The position numbers and the translations under genes were made by a program. DNA of 43,560 bases from the NCBI GenBank assembly GCA_030594815.1, contig JAUVEN010000011.1:1-43560 (forward strand), read 5' to 3'. A model generated the notes under the pieces. That model ran no database searches. It was not told the DNA's origin and saw only the letters and a list, made by a program, of their open reading frames with translations. Source of the DNA: Gammaproteobacteria bacterium. GTDB taxonomy: Bacteria > Pseudomonadota > Gammaproteobacteria > UBA6429 > Thiohalophilaceae. Positions 5,559-13,957 of this stretch are shown in pieces; the stretch's first letter is position 1, and each line of letters opens with the position of its first letter.

Positions 5559-7013
5559 TTATCTTCGCCAGAATGCCGGTGTGAGTAATACCAATAGTGT
5601 AAAAATCTCCAAACGCCCTAATAACATGGCAAAACATAATATCCATTTCGCAGCATCATTAATTCCCGCATAGTTTGATCCCACTTCATTTAATCCTGGT
5701 CCAAGATTATTCATGGATGCTGCTGTTGCAGAAAAAGCACTGATTTGGTCTAACCCTGTAAGCATAAGTGCGAGTAATATTATAATGAAGGCGGCAACGT
5801 AAGCTGAAAAGAACCCCCAAACAGCCTGTATAATTCTATCGGATAATGGTTTACCACCGATTTTAATCACAAATACAGCATTAGGATGTATTAAACGTTT
5901 AACTTCACGCATGCCTTGTTTAAGTAGAAGTAAAAATCGAATCATTTTCATGCCGCCACCCGTTGAACCTGCACATGCTCCGATAAAGCTGGTAAAGAGT
6001 AATAAAATGGGCAAGAAGCCGGGCCAGTTGTAGTATTCGTAAGTAGTAAAGCCTGTGGTTGTTCCGATTGATACGGCTTGAAACATACCATGTAGAAAAG
6101 CACGTTCTGGTGCGATGAAATAATTTGTGTAATATAAATACACCGCTGAGATAAGTGTGATTATCATTAGCAGACTTATATATATTTTAAACTCAGAATC
6201 AAGAAAATAAGCTTTGAGAGAACGACTACGCCAGGATAAAAAGTGAAGTGAAAAATTCACACCTGAAAGAAGCATAAAGATAATGGCAACCACTTCAACC
6301 ATGGGGGTTTCATTAAAAAATCCCATACTAGCATCATGTGTAGAAAAACCACCGATAGCGATAGTTGAGAAACTATGACCTATTGCATCAAATGCATTCA
6401 TTCCCGCCATCCAGTACGCGACTGCGCAAGCAATGGTTAGTGTTAAATAGATGTACCAGAGTGCCTTTGCAGTTTCGGTAATGCGAGGTGTTAATTTATT
6501 GTCTTTCATTGGACCAGGTGTTTCAGCTTTGTATAGCTGCATACCACCAATACCTAGTAAAGGCATGATAGCAACCGCTAAAACAATAATACCCATGCCA
6601 CCCAGCCATTGAAGCTGTTGCCGATAATAAAGAATAGATTCTGGTAAGTTATCCAGTCCGACAATGACGGTTGCCCCCGTTGTCGTTAAACCGGATAAAG
6701 ATTCAAATATGGCATCGGTGATCGATATATCAATTTGTGTAGATAATATAAAAGGTATCGCCCCAAATGATGCTAAAACTGTCCAGAATAAAACAACGAT
6801 TAAAAATCCATCTCTAAGGCGTAATTCATTTTTATAATTTTTAACCGGAAGCCAGGCCACTATCCCTGTAATTAAGGTGACCGCAAAGGCATCAAAAAAA
6901 GGTTCAAAGGCACCATCAAGATAGATAATAGAAACAATAATCGGTGGCACCATGGTAAAACTGAATACCATTAACAAAATGCCAAGAATGCGTTGTATGA
7001 CAAAAAATTGCAT
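5559..7013 (-). CDS. trkH: Trk potassium uptake channel subunit TrkH
   Basis: Membrane-embedded K+ translocating subunit of the Trk system. The 484 residues form about ten to twelve hydrophobic helices in the four-repeat M1-P-M2 layout. Pore loops carry the selectivity glycines in SGLTTTGATV, FSTIAIGGFST, SIGTTTGFTTY and SMNNLGPGLNEVG; CAGSTGGGMKMIRFLLL is a characteristic TrkH segment. Its start lies 5 bases after the trkA stop, so the channel and its gating ring are co-translated, the last two genes of the long minus-strand operon starting at def. The full length and all four filter glycines suggest a working channel. Confidence 0.97.
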   Translation of the reverse strand: MQFFVIQRILGILLMVFSFTMVPPIIVSIIYLDGAFEPFFDAFAVTLITGIVAWLPVKNYKNELRLRDGFLIVVLFWTVLASFGAIPFILSTQIDISITDAIFESLSGLTTTGATVIVGLDNLPESILYYRQQLQWLGGMGIIVLAVAIMPLLGIGGMQLYKAETPGPMKDNKLTPRITETAKALWYIYLTLTIACAVAYWMAGMNAFDAIGHSFSTIAIGGFSTHDASMGFFNETPMVEVVAIIFMLLSGVNFSLHFLSWRSRSLKAYFLDSEFKIYISLLMIITLISAVYLYYTNYFIAPERAFLHGMFQAVSIGTTTGFTTYEYYNWPGFLPILLLFTSFIGACAGSTGGGMKMIRFLLLLKQGMREVKRLIHPNAVFVIKIGGKPLSDRIIQAVWGFFSAYVAAFIIILLALMLTGLDQISAFSATAASMNNLGPGLNEVGSNYAGINDAAKWILCFAMLLGRLEIFTLLVLLTPAFWRR

Positions 7014-7018
7014 AATTA

Positions 7019-8395
7019 TTATATAAAGGTTATGCCAACTTGAAATAACTTTTCAACATCAGAAATATATTTTTTATCAATCAGGAAAAGTATGACGTGA
7101 TCTTCAGGTTCAATCACTGTGTTGTGATGAGCAATTATCACTTCCTCACCACGGACAATGGCACCAATGGTCGTTCCGAAGGGTAATTTAAGTTCACAAA
7201 TTTCACGGCCAACCACTTTTGATGTTGTTTTATCACCGTGAGCTATGGCTTCAATTGCTTCAGCGGCACCGCGACGTAAAGAATGCACTTTTACTACATC
7301 GCCACGGCGAACATGTGCCAATAAACTACTTATGGTTGATTGTTGAGGCGAGATAGCAATATCAATTTCTCCACCCTGAATAAGATCAACATAGGCTGCG
7401 CGATTAATTAAGGCCATAACTTTGCGTGCACCTAAGCGTTTTGCCAGCATAGCGGATAAAATATTCGCTTCTTCATCATTGGTAACAGAACAAAAGATAT
7501 CGGTATTATCGATATTTTCTTCAATCAACAAATTCCCATCTGAGGCATCACCATTAAGTACAATGGTATTGTTGAGTTCTTTAGCAAGGCTTTCAGCACG
7601 GATGGAATTATGGTCAATAATTTTGACCTGGTAATCATTTTCCAGCGCCTCTGCTAATCGTTTACCAATGTTACCACCGCCAACAATCATGATTCGTTTA
7701 TAAGGTTTATCAAGACGACGTAATTCACTGATCATGGCGCGAATACTTTTTGGCGTTGCAACAAAAAAGACTTCATCATCAGCTTCAATGACCGTGTTGC
7801 CCTGTGGAATAATGGCACGATCTCGACGATAAATAGCTGCAATACGGATTTCGACAGTAGGCATGTGTTTTTTAATTGTACTTAATTCATGTCCAACTAA
7901 TGGTCCACCATAATATGCTCGTACACCAACCAATTGTACTTTTTTATCTGCAAAATCGAGGACTTGCAAGGCTCCCGGATGAGTGATTAAGCTTACGATA
8001 TATTCTGTAATAAGCTGTTCAGGACTGATTAAAACATCGACGGGTAAGGCTTCTTGCTGAAAGAGTTGTGGATGCGATAAATAACCCAAAGCACGAACAC
8101 GGGCAATTTTTGTTGGAGTATGGAAAATGGTATATGCCACCTGGCAGGCGACCATATTTGTTTCATCACTATCTGTGACAGCAATAAGCATATCGGCATC
8201 ATCAGCGCCCGCAGCTCTTAGAATATCAGGGTGTGAGGCATGGCCAGTAATGGTACGTAAATCCAGGCGATCCTGAAGAGCGAGTAGTGTTTTTTCATCT
8301 TTATCGATGATAGTAATGTCATTGGCGGCTTCACTAGTGAGATTTTCTGCCAGTGAGCTACCTACCTGCCCTGCACCGAGAATGATAATTTTCAT
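7019..8395 (-). CDS. trkA: Trk system NAD-binding regulatory subunit TrkA
   Basis: Peripheral cytoplasmic subunit that gates TrkH in response to nucleotide binding. The 458 residues hold two RCK_N/RCK_C repeats: the first Rossmann motif is [19 protein letters not shown] at the N-terminus and the second is [18 protein letters not shown] near residue 235, each followed by a conserved acid at the end of strand two (DKDE; DHNS). Both halves end in a TrkA-C domain (about residues 140-225 and 365-455). It lies 35 bases after the ntrX-like gene. The rsmB...trkA linkage is a known gammaproteobacterial arrangement. Confidence 0.97.
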
Positions 8396-8430: not shown

Positions 8431-9825
8431 TTAATACTGTTTTGGATCAATGTTTAAAGCACGCAATTTTCGATAAAGATGAGTACGTTCCATGCCAATG
8501 AGTTTTGCTACTTTGCCAACACTACCACCTGTTTTGATTAAATGGTGTATCAAATAATCCTGCTCAAAACGTTCTCTTGCTTCACGTAATGGTAGATCAT
8601 AAGCGACAGAAATACCCTCTCCCGATACCGTTATTTTTTCTTTTTGTACAATGGCAGATTCAACTTCTTCCAGACTAATTTCGTTACTTGCTGCGGTAAT
8701 GAGTAGATGTTGTACCAAATTAGTTAATTCAAGAATATTGCCCATCCATTCATAATTACGTAGTCTGTTTTGCGCCGCGAGACTGAAATGACGATAGGGT
8801 AAATTTTCTTGCTCAACTAATATATTAGTATAAAAACTAATTAAGTCTGGTATATCTTCACGATGTTCGCGTAACGCAGGAATATGCAGGGGAACAACAT
8901 TAATCAGGTAATATAGGTCCTTTCTAAAGGTATTCTCTTCAACCAGCTTCTCAAGATTCTTGTATGACGAACAGATGATACGTGCTTTGAAAGTAGTAGA
9001 GGATGAGTCGCCAATATGCTGAAAAGAATGTGTTTGTAAAAGACCAAGTAAGAAATTTTGCGTAACATCATCGGCCTGATCAATATTACGCAAAAATAAT
9101 GTCCCACCCTGGGCTTTATCAAGCAAACCCTCAATGACATCGGAGCCTGAGATATGCCCTACTATCTCTTCAGGATTTTTTTCATAACTTAAAGCAGAAA
9201 GATTCGCTTCAATAAAATTTTTATCATTATGGAGGCTATTGGCATGTAAATAGTGAGCAGCGACTTTTGTTCCGCTGCCTGCTTCACCACTTAGTAAAAC
9301 CCAACTATCGTGTTCAGCAATACGTTTTATTTGTTCTCGTAAACGTTGCATTACAGGACTATGACCAACAGGCTCATTAACAATCAGGCCTTGTTGAGCA
9401 TAACTTTGCGGTTCATGGGTTGCTTTATCAAAATTAAATGCTTGTTCAACGGTTAACAGGAGTTTGGCTAAAGACAGGGGTTTCTCTATGAAATCAAAAG
9501 CCCCAAGTCGGGTGGCTTCAACGGCTGTTTCGACGGTACCATGGCCCGACATCATAATAACAGGTGCTGTTAAATTTCCGTTTTCAGACCATTCTTTTAA
9601 TAACGTTATGCCGTCTACATCAGGCATCCATATATCGAGGAGGATAAGACCGGGTTGGTGCTGGCGATATGCTTTACGTGCAGACTCTCCATCTTTCGCA
9701 ACTTCAACGACATAGCCTTCATCCTGTAAAATTTCTTGCAGCAAATGTCGAATATCGGGTTCATCATCAACCACGAGAATATGAGGTTGGTTCGATGCAC
9801 CAGATTGAGTTGTTTTATTATCCAT
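8431..9825 (-). CDS. NtrX-like response regulator with a degenerate AAA+ domain
   Basis: Two-component regulator, partner of the kinase encoded 4 bases upstream. Residues 15-127 are an intact receiver (DD at 20-21, phospho-acceptor D64, S93, K115). Residues 155-385 are clearly derived from a sigma-54 activator AAA+ domain but have lost key residues: Walker A is GEAGSGTK at 180-187 (lysine shifted by one), the GAFTGA loop is replaced near 226-233 by ISGSDVIE, Walker B reads GGTLFLRNI in place of GGTLFLDEI, and the sensor II motif is GNILEL in place of GNVREL. A Fis-type helix-turn-helix remains at about 420-460 (VGKVAKLIGMERTHLYRKL). It therefore probably binds DNA and responds to phosphorylation without ATP hydrolysis or sigma-54 remodelling, acting as repressor or sigma-70 regulator (inference). 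Confidence 0.9.
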   Translation of the reverse strand: MDNKTTQSGASNQPHILVVDDEPDIRHLLQEILQDEGYVVEVAKDGESARKAYRQHQPGLILLDIWMPDVDGITLLKEWSENGNLTAPVIMMSGHGTVETAVEATRLGAFDFIEKPLSLAKLLLTVEQAFNFDKATHEPQSYAQQGLIVNEPVGHSPVMQRLREQIKRIAEHDSWVLLSGEAGSGTKVAAHYLHANSLHNDKNFIEANLSALSYEKNPEEIVGHISGSDVIEGLLDKAQGGTLFLRNIDQADDVTQNFLLGLLQTHSFQHIGDSSSTTFKARIICSSYKNLEKLVEENTFRKDLYYLINVVPLHIPALREHREDIPDLISFYTNILVEQENLPYRHFSLAAQNRLRNYEWMGNILELTNLVQHLLITAASNEISLEEVESAIVQKEKITVSGEGISVAYDLPLREARERFEQDYLIHHLIKTGGSVGKVAKLIGMERTHLYRKLRALNIDPKQY

Positions 9826-9829
9826 TGAA

Positions 9830-12097
9830 TTAAGCTGCTGTATCGTGATTATTATTTGTTATGTTATCAGTGTCCAAAAAAAGGCTTGTAGCTTTTTTTA
9901 CTGGCAGTCTTATTATAATACTTGCCCCACGATTTTCTGCATTTTCAGCAAATATCATTCCGCCATGTTCTTCAACAATCTTTTTCACAATAGCAAGGCC
10001 GAGCCCGCTACCTTTTGGTTTAGTGGTGACATAAGGCTCAAATAATTGATCGAACATGTCTTCAGCTATTCCAGGACCTGTATCAGTAATGATTAATTCA
10101 ACATAACGACAAGCATGCTCTTCAGCACAGCGGGTGGTGATATATATTTTTTCTTCTTTTGACTCTCGTTGTGATTCTGAATGATTTTCCTGATTCGCTT
10201 CTAATGCATTTTTAATTAGATTATGGAGCAATTGCCGTAAGCGACCAATATCAGCTTCAATAGTTGGATTACTGGAATCAAGTGTAACTGAATATAGAGT
10301 GTCATTGTTAGGTGAGATATATAAATCGAGTACTTCATTAATGATTTGATTTAAATCAACAGTGTCTAATTGTAGTGTCGGCATACGTGCGTAATCAGAA
10401 AAGGCTTTGACCATTTCTTTTAACGTTTTAACTTGTTGCACAATAGTGTGGGTAGAACGATCAAGAATATCGGCTTCTTTTGGATCCATTTTATCCAGGT
10501 ATTTATGACGAATACGCTCTGCAGAAAGTTGAATTGGCGTTAAAGGATTTTTGATTTCATGGGCAAGACGCCGGGCAACTTCTCCCCATGCTGCATTTCG
10601 TTGTGCCTTAACAAGTTCGGTTACATCATCAAATACGATAATGTTACCTTCCCCATTATTTTCATTATTAATGGATGTTGAAAGTCGTGTACCACGGCAA
10701 ATTAATATTTTACGTGTGCTGCCAATAAACAAGGTTACTTCCTCCTGCCATTGTTGTTCTTTGGCTTCAAGGTGAGGATAAATAGCATCAACAAAATGTT
10801 GTAAGTGTTGATTCTCTTCTACTGCATCATCTAAAAAATTCCCAATAAAGGGTGTTAATGTTGCACTAAGAATCTGGTTAGCCGCATGATTAGCAGTTTG
10901 TAAAAAATTATGTGTATCAAGCGTAATTACACCAGAAGATAAATTACCTAATATAGTTTCAAGATAAGCATGTTGTGCTTCTGTTTCCTGCTGGCTGAGA
11001 CGTGCACTTTCCTGGGCCATGGAGATTTTTTGAGTCATTTCATTAAATGAACGCACTAAAAAACCAAGTTCATCTTTACCGGGTAAGGGTAGCCGTTTTT
11101 CATAATTACCTGCTGCAACCGCACGTGTGCCTTCCACCAAATCAGAAATAGGTGCAACCATGCGTCGAGCGGCAAAAAAAGCGGCCCAGATTGAAGTTAA
11201 AATACTGAGTAATAAAATGAGTGACAGGGTCAGTATAAAACTATATTTAAGCGGTAAACGTAATACCGTTAATGATCGCACTGCACTGAAAGCTTGTTGT
11301 ACATTTTCAGCAAGCTCATTGATGCGCGGGGTAATTGGATAGAGAAGCTGTAAGATTCGACCATCTAATACGGGGTCAGGGTTTTCCATATTAATTGCGA
11401 TTCGAATGTGTAATCCAATTTCAGGAATGGGTACTAAGCCAAAATCATCTTGCCCCAGTCGTAAGCGTTGTAATGTGTTGTCTTCTAAATGTTGTGGTAG
11501 CAGGCGAGTCGTTTCTCTGATACTTGATGCAATGATACGACCATCGTTAGTAAACAGGGTTAATTCATTTGCCCCGCTTTCTGCTCGAAGTTCATTTAAG
11601 GTCAAGGTTGCAAGTTCATTTGATATGGCATTTAAACGTGGTGACATCTGTTGTGTTTGTCGTAGCAATTCTCGTGTACGCACACCTAATGATGTTTTAC
11701 TCAGTTCAAGTGCATCATTTAATGCATTTTCAACACGTACATCAAACCAGCTATCAATACCACGTTGTAAAAAATCTAAAGAAAAATAATACACCACAGA
11801 TACCGGCGTTACGGAAAGTACAACAAACATAACAACGAGTCTGGATGTTAAACGTGAGCCTGTTTTACCCTGACGGTATTGTTGTATAAGGTGCCAGACA
11901 CTTTTACCAATTAAAGCAACTAATAATATGGTTGCCAGTAAATTAATACCAAGTAATAAAGAATATAAACGACCAAATAATAAAGAGTTATGTGTTGCGA
12001 TACTCATTAAATAGAGTGACGTTAACAACAGTACCACCACCATGGCGATAGGTGTATTACCCGAGAAAAAACGTTTGATTAAGGTTTTAATGGCCAT
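9830..12097 (-). CDS. NtrY-like membrane sensor histidine kinase
   Basis: Sensor kinase of the NtrY type, 755 residues. Three hydrophobic segments near residues 17-35, 45-65 and 87-107 and a fourth near 287-308 enclose a periplasmic domain of about 180 residues. HAMP follows (309-362), then a PAS-like region (about 375-495), the phospho-acceptor H513 in LAHEIKNPLTPIQLSAER, and an HATPase domain with LIKNALEAN, DTGPGIAED and GSGLGLAIV. All catalytic motifs look intact, unlike those in the ATPase domain of its partner regulator. The start overlaps the end of the DUF4390 gene by 19 bases, indicating translational coupling. The signal is not evident; position beside trkAH suggests envelope, redox or ion stress (inference). 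Confidence 0.93.
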   Translation of the reverse strand: MAIKTLIKRFFSGNTPIAMVVVLLLTSLYLMSIATHNSLLFGRLYSLLLGINLLATILLVALIGKSVWHLIQQYRQGKTGSRLTSRLVVMFVVLSVTPVSVVYYFSLDFLQRGIDSWFDVRVENALNDALELSKTSLGVRTRELLRQTQQMSPRLNAISNELATLTLNELRAESGANELTLFTNDGRIIASSIRETTRLLPQHLEDNTLQRLRLGQDDFGLVPIPEIGLHIRIAINMENPDPVLDGRILQLLYPITPRINELAENVQQAFSAVRSLTVLRLPLKYSFILTLSLILLLSILTSIWAAFFAARRMVAPISDLVEGTRAVAAGNYEKRLPLPGKDELGFLVRSFNEMTQKISMAQESARLSQQETEAQHAYLETILGNLSSGVITLDTHNFLQTANHAANQILSATLTPFIGNFLDDAVEENQHLQHFVDAIYPHLEAKEQQWQEEVTLFIGSTRKILICRGTRLSTSINNENNGEGNIIVFDDVTELVKAQRNAAWGEVARRLAHEIKNPLTPIQLSAERIRHKYLDKMDPKEADILDRSTHTIVQQVKTLKEMVKAFSDYARMPTLQLDTVDLNQIINEVLDLYISPNNDTLYSVTLDSSNPTIEADIGRLRQLLHNLIKNALEANQENHSESQRESKEEKIYITTRCAEEHACRYVELIITDTGPGIAEDMFDQLFEPYVTTKPKGSGLGLAIVKKIVEEHGGMIFAENAENRGASIIIRLPVKKATSLFLDTDNITNNNHDTAA

Positions 12098-12663
12098 GAA
12101 AACCAGTCACTTTCTAATTGCCATTGTGATGAGATATAAGCAATGGGACGCATTGGAGCGGGTAAAGATTCAATATCAAGATAAGTACGTAGACGTACAT
12201 AATATTCATCATCTTCATCAAGTAAGTTTTTATCGATTAAGGGAAAGTCACGAATATTACTTAAAGAATGTAATGCAGTATTTAAACTAATGTAATTGAC
12301 TTGTGCACCACTATTTAAATTGTGAATAATATATTTCTCAGACAGGGCGTGATAAAGCAGTAAGTAACCTTGTTCGAGTTTAGCAATGGTTTTATCCCAC
12401 CACCAGTTTCGATCTTGTTGTACTTCGATATTAATAAGCACTATTAACGGCACACCACTGCGAAGTGCTTCAAGAGCATCATAAGAAAATTCGAGGTCCA
12501 TGTTTGCATCCAGATGAAAAACATGTTCCTTGAGTTTTGTCTCGGCACTGAGAATTTTAAAGCCTTCGGCCTGACTTAGTGATGGAAAAATACTGCTAAT
12601 CAGAATGCACAGTAAAGCAGCAAATAGTATTTTATTTATCTTAATGCTTTTGTATAAGTGCAT
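12079..12663 (-). CDS. DUF4390 family exported protein
   Basis: Function unknown. From the start chosen here there are 194 residues: a signal peptide of about 32 residues (MHLYKSIKINKILF, then a hydrophobic core ending SLSQA) and a mature part of mostly beta-strand character with EFSYDALEALRSGVPLIVLINIEV and a late YVRLRTYLDIESLPAPMRPIAY, which fit the DUF4390 family. In related genomes this gene lies between rsmB and the ntrYX-like pair, as here. It overlaps the rsmB end by 23 bases and the kinase start by 19. An ATG seven codons upstream (12684) is possible but lengthens the signal peptide N-region. A role in signalling to the neighbouring kinase is only a guess from linkage. Confidence 0.85.
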   Translation of the reverse strand: MHLYKSIKINKILFAALLCILISSIFPSLSQAEGFKILSAETKLKEHVFHLDANMDLEFSYDALEALRSGVPLIVLINIEVQQDRNWWWDKTIAKLEQGYLLLYHALSEKYIIHNLNSGAQVNYISLNTALHSLSNIRDFPLIDKNLLDEDDEYYVRLRTYLDIESLPAPMRPIAYISSQWQLESDWFSWPLKP

Positions 12664-13957
12664 AAAAGAAGCCATCCATTCCATCTTCGCTATTTGTACC
12701 GCCTTCGCCAGGCAATATTTGTTTACCAGCGATTTGTTGCTGTCCCCAATCTGAGTTTATAGGTTGAAGTTTGGCATCTGCATGATGTTGAAGAAAGTGT
12801 TGTATTTGTATTGTATTTTCTTCTGCCAGTACGGAACATGTTGCGTATAACAGCATACCCCCTGACTTCAATAGAGGCCAGAGCGCATTAAGAATTTGCT
12901 TTTGATCTTGTACTAATTTAGCAATGTCATCCGGATGTCTTAGTAATTTTATATCTGGATGGCGACGAATTACGCCACTGGCACTGCAAGGTGCATCGAG
13001 CAAGATGCGGTCGAAAGGTTCTTTATCCCACCAGGAGTCTGGATCAAAGGCATTAGCGGCAAGAAGTTGTGCTTTTAGCTGAGTTCGATCAAGATTTTCC
13101 TGAACCCTTTCTAACCGACTTGCTTCGATATCAAGAGCAAGAAGATCAATGTCATTTTCTTTCTCCAGAAGATGAACGGTTTTGCCCCCGGGTGCAGCGC
13201 AAGCATCAAGAATACGATCGCCTTTTTGTGGATCTAATAAAATAGCAGCAAGTTGTGCCGCTTCATCCTGAACCGATACTTTGCCTTCTGCAAATAATGG
13301 CAATGAATATACAGGCACAGGTTTTTTTAAGTAAATGGCATCGGGTGAATATTTTGCCGCGCTTGCTGGGATCTCGTTTTGTTCTAATAATTTTAGATAA
13401 TCTTCTCTTTTTATATGGCTCGTATTTACTCGTAAGGTCATGGGTGGATTTTGATTGTTGGCTTGTAATATTTGTTGCCAACGTTTTTCTTCAAGCCAAT
13501 TTTTTTTGATTATATTCAACCACCATTGAGGGTGAGCAAACTCAGCAACTTCATTATTTTTAATTTGTTTTGTTAATGTTTCTGCCTGACGTTGGTAGTT
13601 TCTTAATACTGCATTAACGAAATTTTTTGCCCAATGTTTTTTTAATGCTTTAGTGACTTTAACCGTTTCGGAAACAGCGGCATGATCAGGAATACGCATT
13701 TCAATGAGTTGATATAGCCCACTTAGTATAAGAAGAACAACGTCATAATCCTTTGTTTTAAGGGGTTTGCTGATGAGTTGGTCGGCAATATATTCCAAAC
13801 GAGGTAATAAACGAATAACGCCATAACTCATGGCTTGAATTAACGGGCGATCATTTTCTTCTATATTGTCAGCATATTTTGCAATGGCATCAGGAAGGTT
13901 GCGACCATGCTGAGTAACTTGAAATAAAATTTTAACAACGGCGAGTCGACTGTTCAT
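12641..13957 (-). CDS. rsmB: 16S rRNA (cytosine-967-C5)-methyltransferase
   Basis: Methylates C967 of 16S rRNA with SAM. The N-terminal 140 residues are the NusB-like RNA-binding domain (LAVVKILFQVTQHGRNLPDAI). The SAM site is ILDACAAPGGKT, and the two cysteines of the m5C mechanism are in LLDAPCSASGVIRRHPDIK and LLYATCSVLAEEN. At 438 residues it is full length. It overlaps fmt by 4 bases (ATGA), a classic coupled junction in the def-fmt-rsmB order. Confidence 0.97.
   Translation of the reverse strand: MNSRLAVVKILFQVTQHGRNLPDAIAKYADNIEENDRPLIQAMSYGVIRLLPRLEYIADQLISKPLKTKDYDVVLLILSGLYQLIEMRIPDHAAVSETVKVTKALKKHWAKNFVNAVLRNYQRQAETLTKQIKNNEVAEFAHPQWWLNIIKKNWLEEKRWQQILQANNQNPPMTLRVNTSHIKREDYLKLLEQNEIPASAAKYSPDAIYLKKPVPVYSLPLFAEGKVSVQDEAAQLAAILLDPQKGDRILDACAAPGGKTVHLLEKENDIDLLALDIEASRLERVQENLDRTQLKAQLLAANAFDPDSWWDKEPFDRILLDAPCSASGVIRRHPDIKLLRHPDDIAKLVQDQKQILNALWPLLKSGGMLLYATCSVLAEENTIQIQHFLQHHADAKLQPINSDWGQQQIAGKQILPGEGGTNSEDGMDGFFYALIQKH

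Follow-up and report, generated by a model that had tools for sequence, protein, structure and literature searches.

Annotation and modelling still treat NtrX as a nitrogen-responsive sigma54 activator; one paper, for example, counts NtrX/NtrY among the sigma54 activator systems (PMC12194929; this and the other papers given by PMC number are cited for part of their text). The solved structure closest to the NtrX examined here is that of Brucella abortus NtrX (5M7N/5M7O/5M7P; E 1e-85), which also provides the first Foldseek hits, and we compared it together with the alphaproteobacterial NtrX proteins of S. meliloti and Azospirillum. These alpha proteins share with ours the receiver-AAA+-Fis order, the NtrY partner and the lack of a GAFTGA motif, and in S. 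meliloti also the adjacency of ntrX and trkA. Unlike ours, they keep the Walker lysine, the Walker B DE pair, the finger arginines and the sensor II arginine. Moreover, ntrBC lies upstream in the alpha locus, in place of the rsmB-DUF4390 pair found here (PMC13001219; S. meliloti ntrC).

The betaproteobacterial type, NtrX/PlrR of Neisseria gonorrhoeae and of the Bordetella PlrSR system, shares the rsmB-DUF4390-ntrY-ntrX neighbourhood with our locus (PMC13001219), and its NtrX resembles ours in having neither GAFTGA nor the Walker lysine while keeping an intact receiver and the ERTHLYRK helix. In Bordetella, phosphotransfer and the modulation of PlrS by PlrP have been reported by genetics, PlrP appears to restrain the phosphatase activity of PlrS, phosphorylated PlrR (PlrR~P) is essential in vitro, and this NtrYX-type (PlrPSR) system matters for infection (PMC13001219). 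Two further groups of AAA+ relatives bear on the comparison. The NtrC proteins of Caulobacter and Rhodobacter capsulatus are also without GAFTGA and, like VpsR of Vibrio cholerae, act at sigma70 promoters; Caulobacter NtrC, however, needs its Walker A and Walker B residues in vivo (PMC10274813), and our protein has neither. VpsR is cited in the same paper as having an AAA+ activator fold that works without sigma54 and without ATP; it binds c-di-GMP according to its structure entry title, whereas our NtrX possesses a complete receiver together with a cognate kinase.

The window, the whole stretch of 43,560 nucleotides that we analysed, corresponds to contig 98 in a draft genome of 2.8 Mb, and the features of the locus are collected in Table 1. 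The genes form a same-strand run of def-like, fmt-like, rsmB, the DUF4390 gene, ntrY, ntrX, trkA and trkH. The names def, fmt, rsmB, trkA and trkH follow family knowledge; for trkA, the gene order ntrYX-trkA annotated in S. meliloti agrees. Pfam places a receiver at residues 16-126 of the ntrX product, Sigma54_activat at 153-313, AAA_lid_14 at 319-397 and HTH_8 at 417-456. The best of 114 matching NCBIfam models is the NtrX equivalog NF051870, but its score of 394.4 bits falls below the 600-bit cut-off at which that model recognizes an alpha-type nitrogen-assimilation NtrX. The features of a PlrPSR-type NtrX are all present, namely the receiver-AAA+-Fis order, the phosphoacceptor Asp, an adjacent intact NtrY and the upstream rsmB and DUF4390 genes, and in a tree the protein groups with other NtrX proteins, apart from canonical paralogues (support for the dividing branch 100 and 99). 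A reading made earlier from the DNA letters alone (the sequence-only reading) held that the NtrY-like kinase keeps all of its motifs, and indeed its H, N, G1 and G2 boxes are all intact. Among 20 fetched same-family loci, rsmB, the DUF4390 gene and ntrY are present in every one, as are the H, G1 and G2 boxes of NtrY, and the N box is found in 16 under a strict pattern; of 52 NtrY proteins in a less strict set, 42 matched all three box patterns and ten did not.

Table 1. Coordinates of the ntrX locus within the window
Feature	Position	Strand	Basis or detail
ntrX (plrR-type)	8431..9825	-	464 aa; ORF and translation, uninterrupted; Pfam domains
Receiver domain, residues 14-131	9433..9786	-	Pfam PF00072
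Codon of D64, presumed phosphoacceptor Asp	9634..9636	-	sequence, alignment
AAA+ core and lid, residues 150-397, predicted catalytically dead	8635..9378	-	PF00158, predicted structure
Former Walker A GEAGSGTK, Thr 186 at the Lys position	9265..9288	-	alignment
L1 loop region GHISGSDVIEG, without GAFTGA, five residues shorter than in paralogues	9127..9159	-	alignment
Former Walker B GGTLFLRNI, DE to RN	9082..9108	-	alignment
Arginine-finger segment, R301 kept, R307 to Leu	8905..8925	-	alignment
Former sensor II GNILEL, R365 to L	8725..8742	-	alignment
Fis-type DNA-binding domain, residues 412-458, ERTHLYRK helix	8452..8592	-	PF02954
ntrY, 755-aa membrane histidine kinase	9830..12097	-	Pfam NtrY_N, HAMP, HisKA, HATPase_c
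DUF4390 gene, plrP homologue	12079..12684	-	PF14334, E 5.8e-47
rsmB, conserved upstream neighbour	12641..13957	-	ORF
trkA, downstream neighbour	7019..8395	-	ORF
trkH-like potassium transporter gene	5559..7013	-	ORF

As canonical controls we took the nine best Sigma54_activat matches in the same genome and aligned them to the window NtrX. All nine keep the Walker A lysine, the Walker B DE pair, arginines at 301 and 307 and the sensor II arginine; the window NtrX has T186 in place of the lysine, R246-N247 in place of DE and L365 in place of the sensor II arginine (the names sensor II and, below, S93 and K115 follow family knowledge). Its L1 region spans 15 residues versus 20 in all nine paralogues. 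A GAFTGA-like string, counted with one and the same loose pattern in both sets, is found in 9/9 paralogues and in 0/213 AAA+-bearing orthologues, the window NtrX included. The PF00158 (Sigma54_activat) score is 123.8 bits, compared with 215.7-255.6 for the paralogues. A fifth loss, which the sequence-only reading had not listed, is the replacement of R307 by leucine at a position that aligns with the finger arginine of NtrC1 (an arginine-finger role is described for R299 in NtrC1 and R168 in PspF; PMC7175178); R301 is the arginine that the finger segment keeps. Of the features of a sigma54-dependent bEBP, GAFTGA, the Walker A lysine, the Walker B DE pair, R307 and the sensor II arginine are thus missing, and the Walker A lysine and Walker B Asp are reported to be needed (PMC10274813).

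The claim of a dead AAA+ domain between intact receiver and DNA-binding ends is borne out by T186, RN, the short L1 region and L365 on the one hand and by the kept D64 and Fis domain on the other. A shifted Walker lysine (K187, after T186) can be rejected: the same position is K in four, S in two and R in one of seven same-genus orthologues. Two species, at 96% and 93% identity, have identical residues at the lost motifs, which makes chance or an assembly error unlikely. As judged from its residues, the AAA+ domain is catalytically dead; with the loop, the lysine, the acids, the finger and sensor II lost, no normal ATP binding, hydrolysis or remodelling of sigma54 holoenzyme is expected, and sigma54 activation by this protein is very unlikely. 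The genome contains rpoN, a point on which the sequence-only reading had suggested a check, together with the nine canonical activators, so the loss is specific to NtrX, and loss of rpoN as the cause of motif decay is rejected. The presence of rpoN and the Pfam name of the domain, Sigma54_activat, could be taken to mean that NtrX still works as an ordinary sigma54 activator whose motifs are unusual, but the ring-ATPase and sigma54-contact features are missing together, R301 excepted, and we regard this explanation as extremely unlikely. Sigma54-like sites show no excess: allowing up to two mismatches, the window contains 27 matches, and 25.3 are expected.

The extent of these losses was followed in 224 NtrX orthologues. 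A search of 58 genomes, its own included, gave full-length orthologues in 7/8 same-genus genomes (again counting its own; G002, 88% complete, has none) and in 24/29 further genomes of the family; fragments at contig ends (G010, G028, G029 and G036) were excluded, and G016 gave a paralogue-level match only. The same search also supplied 12 loci of other families. Of 586 confirmed named-genome loci we took the best 80, a choice biased to near relatives, and 75 were left once five identical to others in the set had been dropped. A class-wide DUF4390 search matched 245/369 genomes; from about 150 top-ranking places in its listing we chose 68 loci, in most cases one for each family, and two of the 68 are cut off before ntrX, which leaves 66. 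In the G259 order, where 59/60 genomes matched, 40 of the 59 were used. The class sample accordingly numbers 78, the named genomes 75 and the G259 order 40. D20, D21, D64, S93 and K115 are present in the window NtrX and in 224/224 orthologues. The Walker A lysine is found in 0/7 proteins of the genus, 0/24 of the rest of the family and 0/40 of the G259 order, versus 65/78 in the class sample (ten more have Arg) and 42/75 among the named genomes (32 more have Arg); in genus and family 26/31 have Ile, Met or Leu in its place. The sensor II arginine is kept in 4/7 of the genus, 23/24 of the rest of the family, 61/78 of the class sample and 73/75 of the named genomes. As to whether the losses are fixed in the clade, then, the answer is divided: the Walker lysine is gone from 31/31 family proteins, and within the genus the sensor II arginine is missing only from the window species and its two nearest relatives. 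R301 is kept in 7/7 of the genus and 22/24 of the rest of the family. Outside the genus, the family list and the G259 order there are 151 other AAA+-bearing orthologues; 28 keep the lysine, DE and the sensor II arginine, and nine of these also keep R307.

In the pooled class and named samples (n=153), GAFTGA is retained in none, R307 in 21, the Walker B Asp in 62, the Walker B Glu in 94, the Walker lysine in 107, R301 in 132, the sensor II arginine in 134 and D64 in 153. This series reads as an order of loss from sigma54 contact through ring hydrolysis and phosphate binding to the domain itself, retention frequencies being no proof of order. Since GAFTGA is absent from 213/213 orthologues and from the alpha NtrX proteins examined, the loss of sigma54 contact probably dates from near the family's origin; the window NtrX probably represents a late stage of the subsequent ATPase decay. 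Walker B was altered many times, its Glu accounting for 17 changes on a 70-row tree. With Lys or Arg scored as kept, the free 70-row tree gives two losses of the Walker lysine; under a constraint that joins the family and the G259 order a single loss is not rejected (p-AU 0.85), the constrained tree being 24 log units higher. With NtrY, receiver and HTH, the family and the G259 order stand apart, and the tree in which they are held together is 19.5 log units lower (p-AU 0.085). Many forks are open in these trees, which were made in 'quick' mode or with FastTree, and given these conflicting tests we do not claim that the Walker-lysine losses are independent.

By the alignments, the motor losses of the window NtrX are of different ages and not one lineage-specific event. 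The 'four independent motifs' of the sequence-only reading are therefore a fair description of what is missing, not a count of four events in this lineage. That reading also took the protein to mark a change away from sigma54 activation; the direction stands, and the timing does not, the GAFTGA motif being missing throughout the orthologues and in alpha NtrX. More tentatively, we suggest that the NtrX family has been disarmed stepwise, with the sigma54 loop going first, finger and Walker B second, the Walker lysine third, sensor II fourth and the domain last, and that the window lineage stopped at a selected, phosphorylation-controlled scaffold.

The last of these steps is seen in the G259 order. 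In the products of 10/40 loci no AAA+ match lies between receiver and Fis domain, and a stretch of 28-80 residues links the two. In the other 30 a domain as long as AAA+ persists, with scores of 16-163 bits on a profile built from previously collected orthologues, a profile that contains neither the G259 set nor the 66 class-sample proteins; 60/66 of the latter score 275-416 on it. The receiver and HTH of one protein of this order (L242) are 96% identical to the ntrX product of Neisseria gonorrhoeae; the order therefore holds Neisseriaceae relatives, consistent with the betaproteobacterial type. In N. gonorrhoeae NtrX itself the AAA+ domain is eroded, not absent, and is without the Walker lysine. 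The statement that beta NtrX is without an AAA+ domain (PMC13001219) is thus too strong for 30/40 of the sampled G259 loci. The ten that do lack it mean that the AAA+ domain is dispensable in part of the family, and full deletion amounts to three changes on the NtrY tree. The window NtrX does not fit the AAA+-less beta type: where the sampled beta-type copies have a more eroded domain (30/40) or none (10/40), it keeps a full-length AAA+ domain whose fold is well predicted. The Pfam family PF14532, Sigma54_activ_2, matches eroded NtrX AAA+ domains at E 1.6e-43 (L161:3697-4962) and 1.5e-40 (L205:2419-3768), and its name may mislead on such proteins. One record with an ntrX locus, the 2.17-Mb NZ_CP119140.1 of Neisseria gonorrhoeae (L303), is listed as a plasmid in PLSDB and has a chromosome-like size.

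The AAA+ domain of the window NtrX is still selected as protein, its lid more conserved than its core. For the core, comparison with the two nearest relatives gives dN/dS values of 0.028 and 0.039; three further relatives give 0.06-0.10, with dS near saturation. The comparison covers these five relatives, dS not being computable for the sixth (L019). Across the same three genome pairs, pN/pS in the core (0.19-0.21) is roughly double the value for one canonical activator (0.09-0.10), and the receiver is faster too (0.10-0.16 versus 0.02-0.07), so it is the whole NtrX that evolves faster and not the dead domain alone. Mean identity over genus and family (32 rows) is 0.82 for the receiver, 0.74 for the HTH, 0.69 for the lid and 0.54 for the AAA+ core, whereas among the nine canonical paralogues it is the core that ranks first (0.44-0.49), and receiver, lid and HTH lie at 0.21-0.32; the two sets differ in kind and only the order of the domains is comparable. 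Purifying selection on ntrX and the intact kinase agree with the earlier suggestion that the NtrYX pair is in use. They also bear on the possibility that ntrX is a decaying pseudogene, to which we give next to no credence. Many catalytic residues have gone, sensor II most recently within the genus (three species), but the open reading frame is full length in seven of eight same-genus genomes (the eighth being the 88% complete one with no orthologue), the core dN/dS is 0.03-0.10, the receiver residues are invariant, and operon and kinase are kept. Canonical orthologues alongside signs of pseudogene decay were looked for in the sample, and that combination was not found.

The predicted structure of the window NtrX has a pLDDT of 80-95 in each ten-residue block from 151 to 390. 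The full-length model (mean pLDDT 82, pTM 0.53) deviates from Brucella NtrX by an rmsd of ~21 A, and its domain arrangement is not to be trusted. The modelled AAA+ domain superposes on that of FleQ with 2.3 A over 245 residues (Z 29.0) and also matches the fold of VpsR (Z 25.7), which to our knowledge is not an NtrX orthologue. These close matches to FleQ and VpsR raise the idea that the domain has become a receptor for a second messenger of the c-di-GMP type. H191 and H373 occupy both of the places that we infer for the binding arginines, a placement of which we are unsure, and we think such a conversion very improbable. Arginines for c-di-GMP binding are reported in FleQ/VfmH (PMC10714721). 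The retained fold, taken with rpoN and the nine canonical activators, might also suit a subunit that joins an active sigma54 activator from the same cell in mixed rings and poisons or regulates them; against this, 10/40 G259-order relatives have deleted the domain, and we consider it highly doubtful.

The strong purifying selection on the core also counts against regarding the domain as a scaffold, as it could mean a residual nucleotide-linked function. Moreover, R301 (22/24 in the other family members) and the family sensor II arginine (23/24), kept beside a lost lysine, would be odd for a purely passive domain. The pocket might bind nucleotide without hydrolysing it, with binding gating the regulator, as in R. 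capsulatus NtrC, for which ATP binding but not hydrolysis is needed (PMC10274813); Brucella NtrX crystals contain ATP and ADP, according to their entry titles. Brucella NtrX, however, retains its lysine in the alignment, whereas in the family of the window NtrX that lysine is lost in 31/31 full-length orthologues, mostly to hydrophobic residues, and in the window species the sensor II arginine is lost as well. We consider nucleotide gating unlikely.

The reading that we prefer, to which we assign a probability of about two in three, is that the window NtrX, of the rsmB-DUF4390-NtrYX (PlrPSR) type, regulates without sigma54 and under the control of phosphorylation, its ATPase having become a structural scaffold. 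It would be the NtrX/PlrR regulator of a PlrP-NtrY-NtrX three-component system. By extrapolation from Bordetella, the DUF4390 protein in the periplasm probably tunes NtrY; NtrY would phosphorylate D64, and phosphorylation would alter the dimerisation or higher assembly of NtrX. NtrX would then bind DNA through its Fis domain and activate or repress sigma70-type promoters. The dead AAA+ domain would serve as a passive module for assembly and spacing between receiver and DNA-binding domain, a role that may be filled by the 28-80 residue linker in some betaproteobacterial-type relatives. The nearest evidence for a working NtrX with a dead AAA+ domain comes from Neisseria, in which ntrX affects respiratory enzymes (PMC12697260) even though its product is without the Walker lysine.

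In R. sphaeroides, NtrX ChIP-seq gave six high-confidence sites, of which one is at the ntrX operon itself and the other five are at genes related to the envelope (PMC7240162). For possible targets we used the published motif GCAn9TGC (PMC7240162). Upstream of mraZ the motif occurs in none of the 26 usable loci, compared with 4.7 expected from the rest of the loci (of 30 given, three had no recognised start and one had only 7 upstream bases), a shortfall that counts against our preferred reading, and the window holds 10 occurrences versus 13.2 expected. One copy, at 12885-12899 of the window, sits in the 3' end of rsmB, with 200 bases between it and the start of the DUF4390 gene. Six of seven same-genus genomes keep it, but the codons that it overlaps are themselves conserved, and its conservation is therefore no evidence of a site. 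A promoter in the 3' end of rsmB is described in Bordetella (PMC13001219).

Already in print are the GAFTGA-less NtrX of Caulobacter (PMC10274813) and the AAA+-less beta NtrX. Among the papers listed by our searches of the open-licence literature we found no description of a dead Walker A in NtrX; new here are the catalytic death of a retained NtrX AAA+ domain and the graded series between these extremes, and part of this picture may already be published, given that the review PMC12697260, in the part cited, mentions 'four different classes' of NtrX. The residues of the window NtrX, its family and the sampled betaproteobacterial-type copies contradict the sigma54-activator label, an error that the Pfam names Sigma54_activat and Sigma54_activ_2 propagate. 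The graded orthologues offer material on how a motor domain turns passive and on what a minimal NtrX is.

Replacement of the Walker A lysine by Arg is common among the named genomes (32/75, within L057-L136), and 19/32 of these proteins keep the Walker B DE pair; to judge from their motifs, they represent a milder stage of decay. Apparent kinase-regulator fusions, read from long open frames at five loci (L047, L187, L195, L207 and L210), were rejected, since NtrY lies in another frame in all five. At L170, on a long contig, the NtrX open reading frame contains a receiver and an AAA+ domain and no recognised Fis domain, possibly by a frameshift or by a real truncation. In other class members, from six different families (L052, L054, L141, L190, L197 and L198) the L1 region or the core is partly collapsed, and these are apparently further stages of decay.
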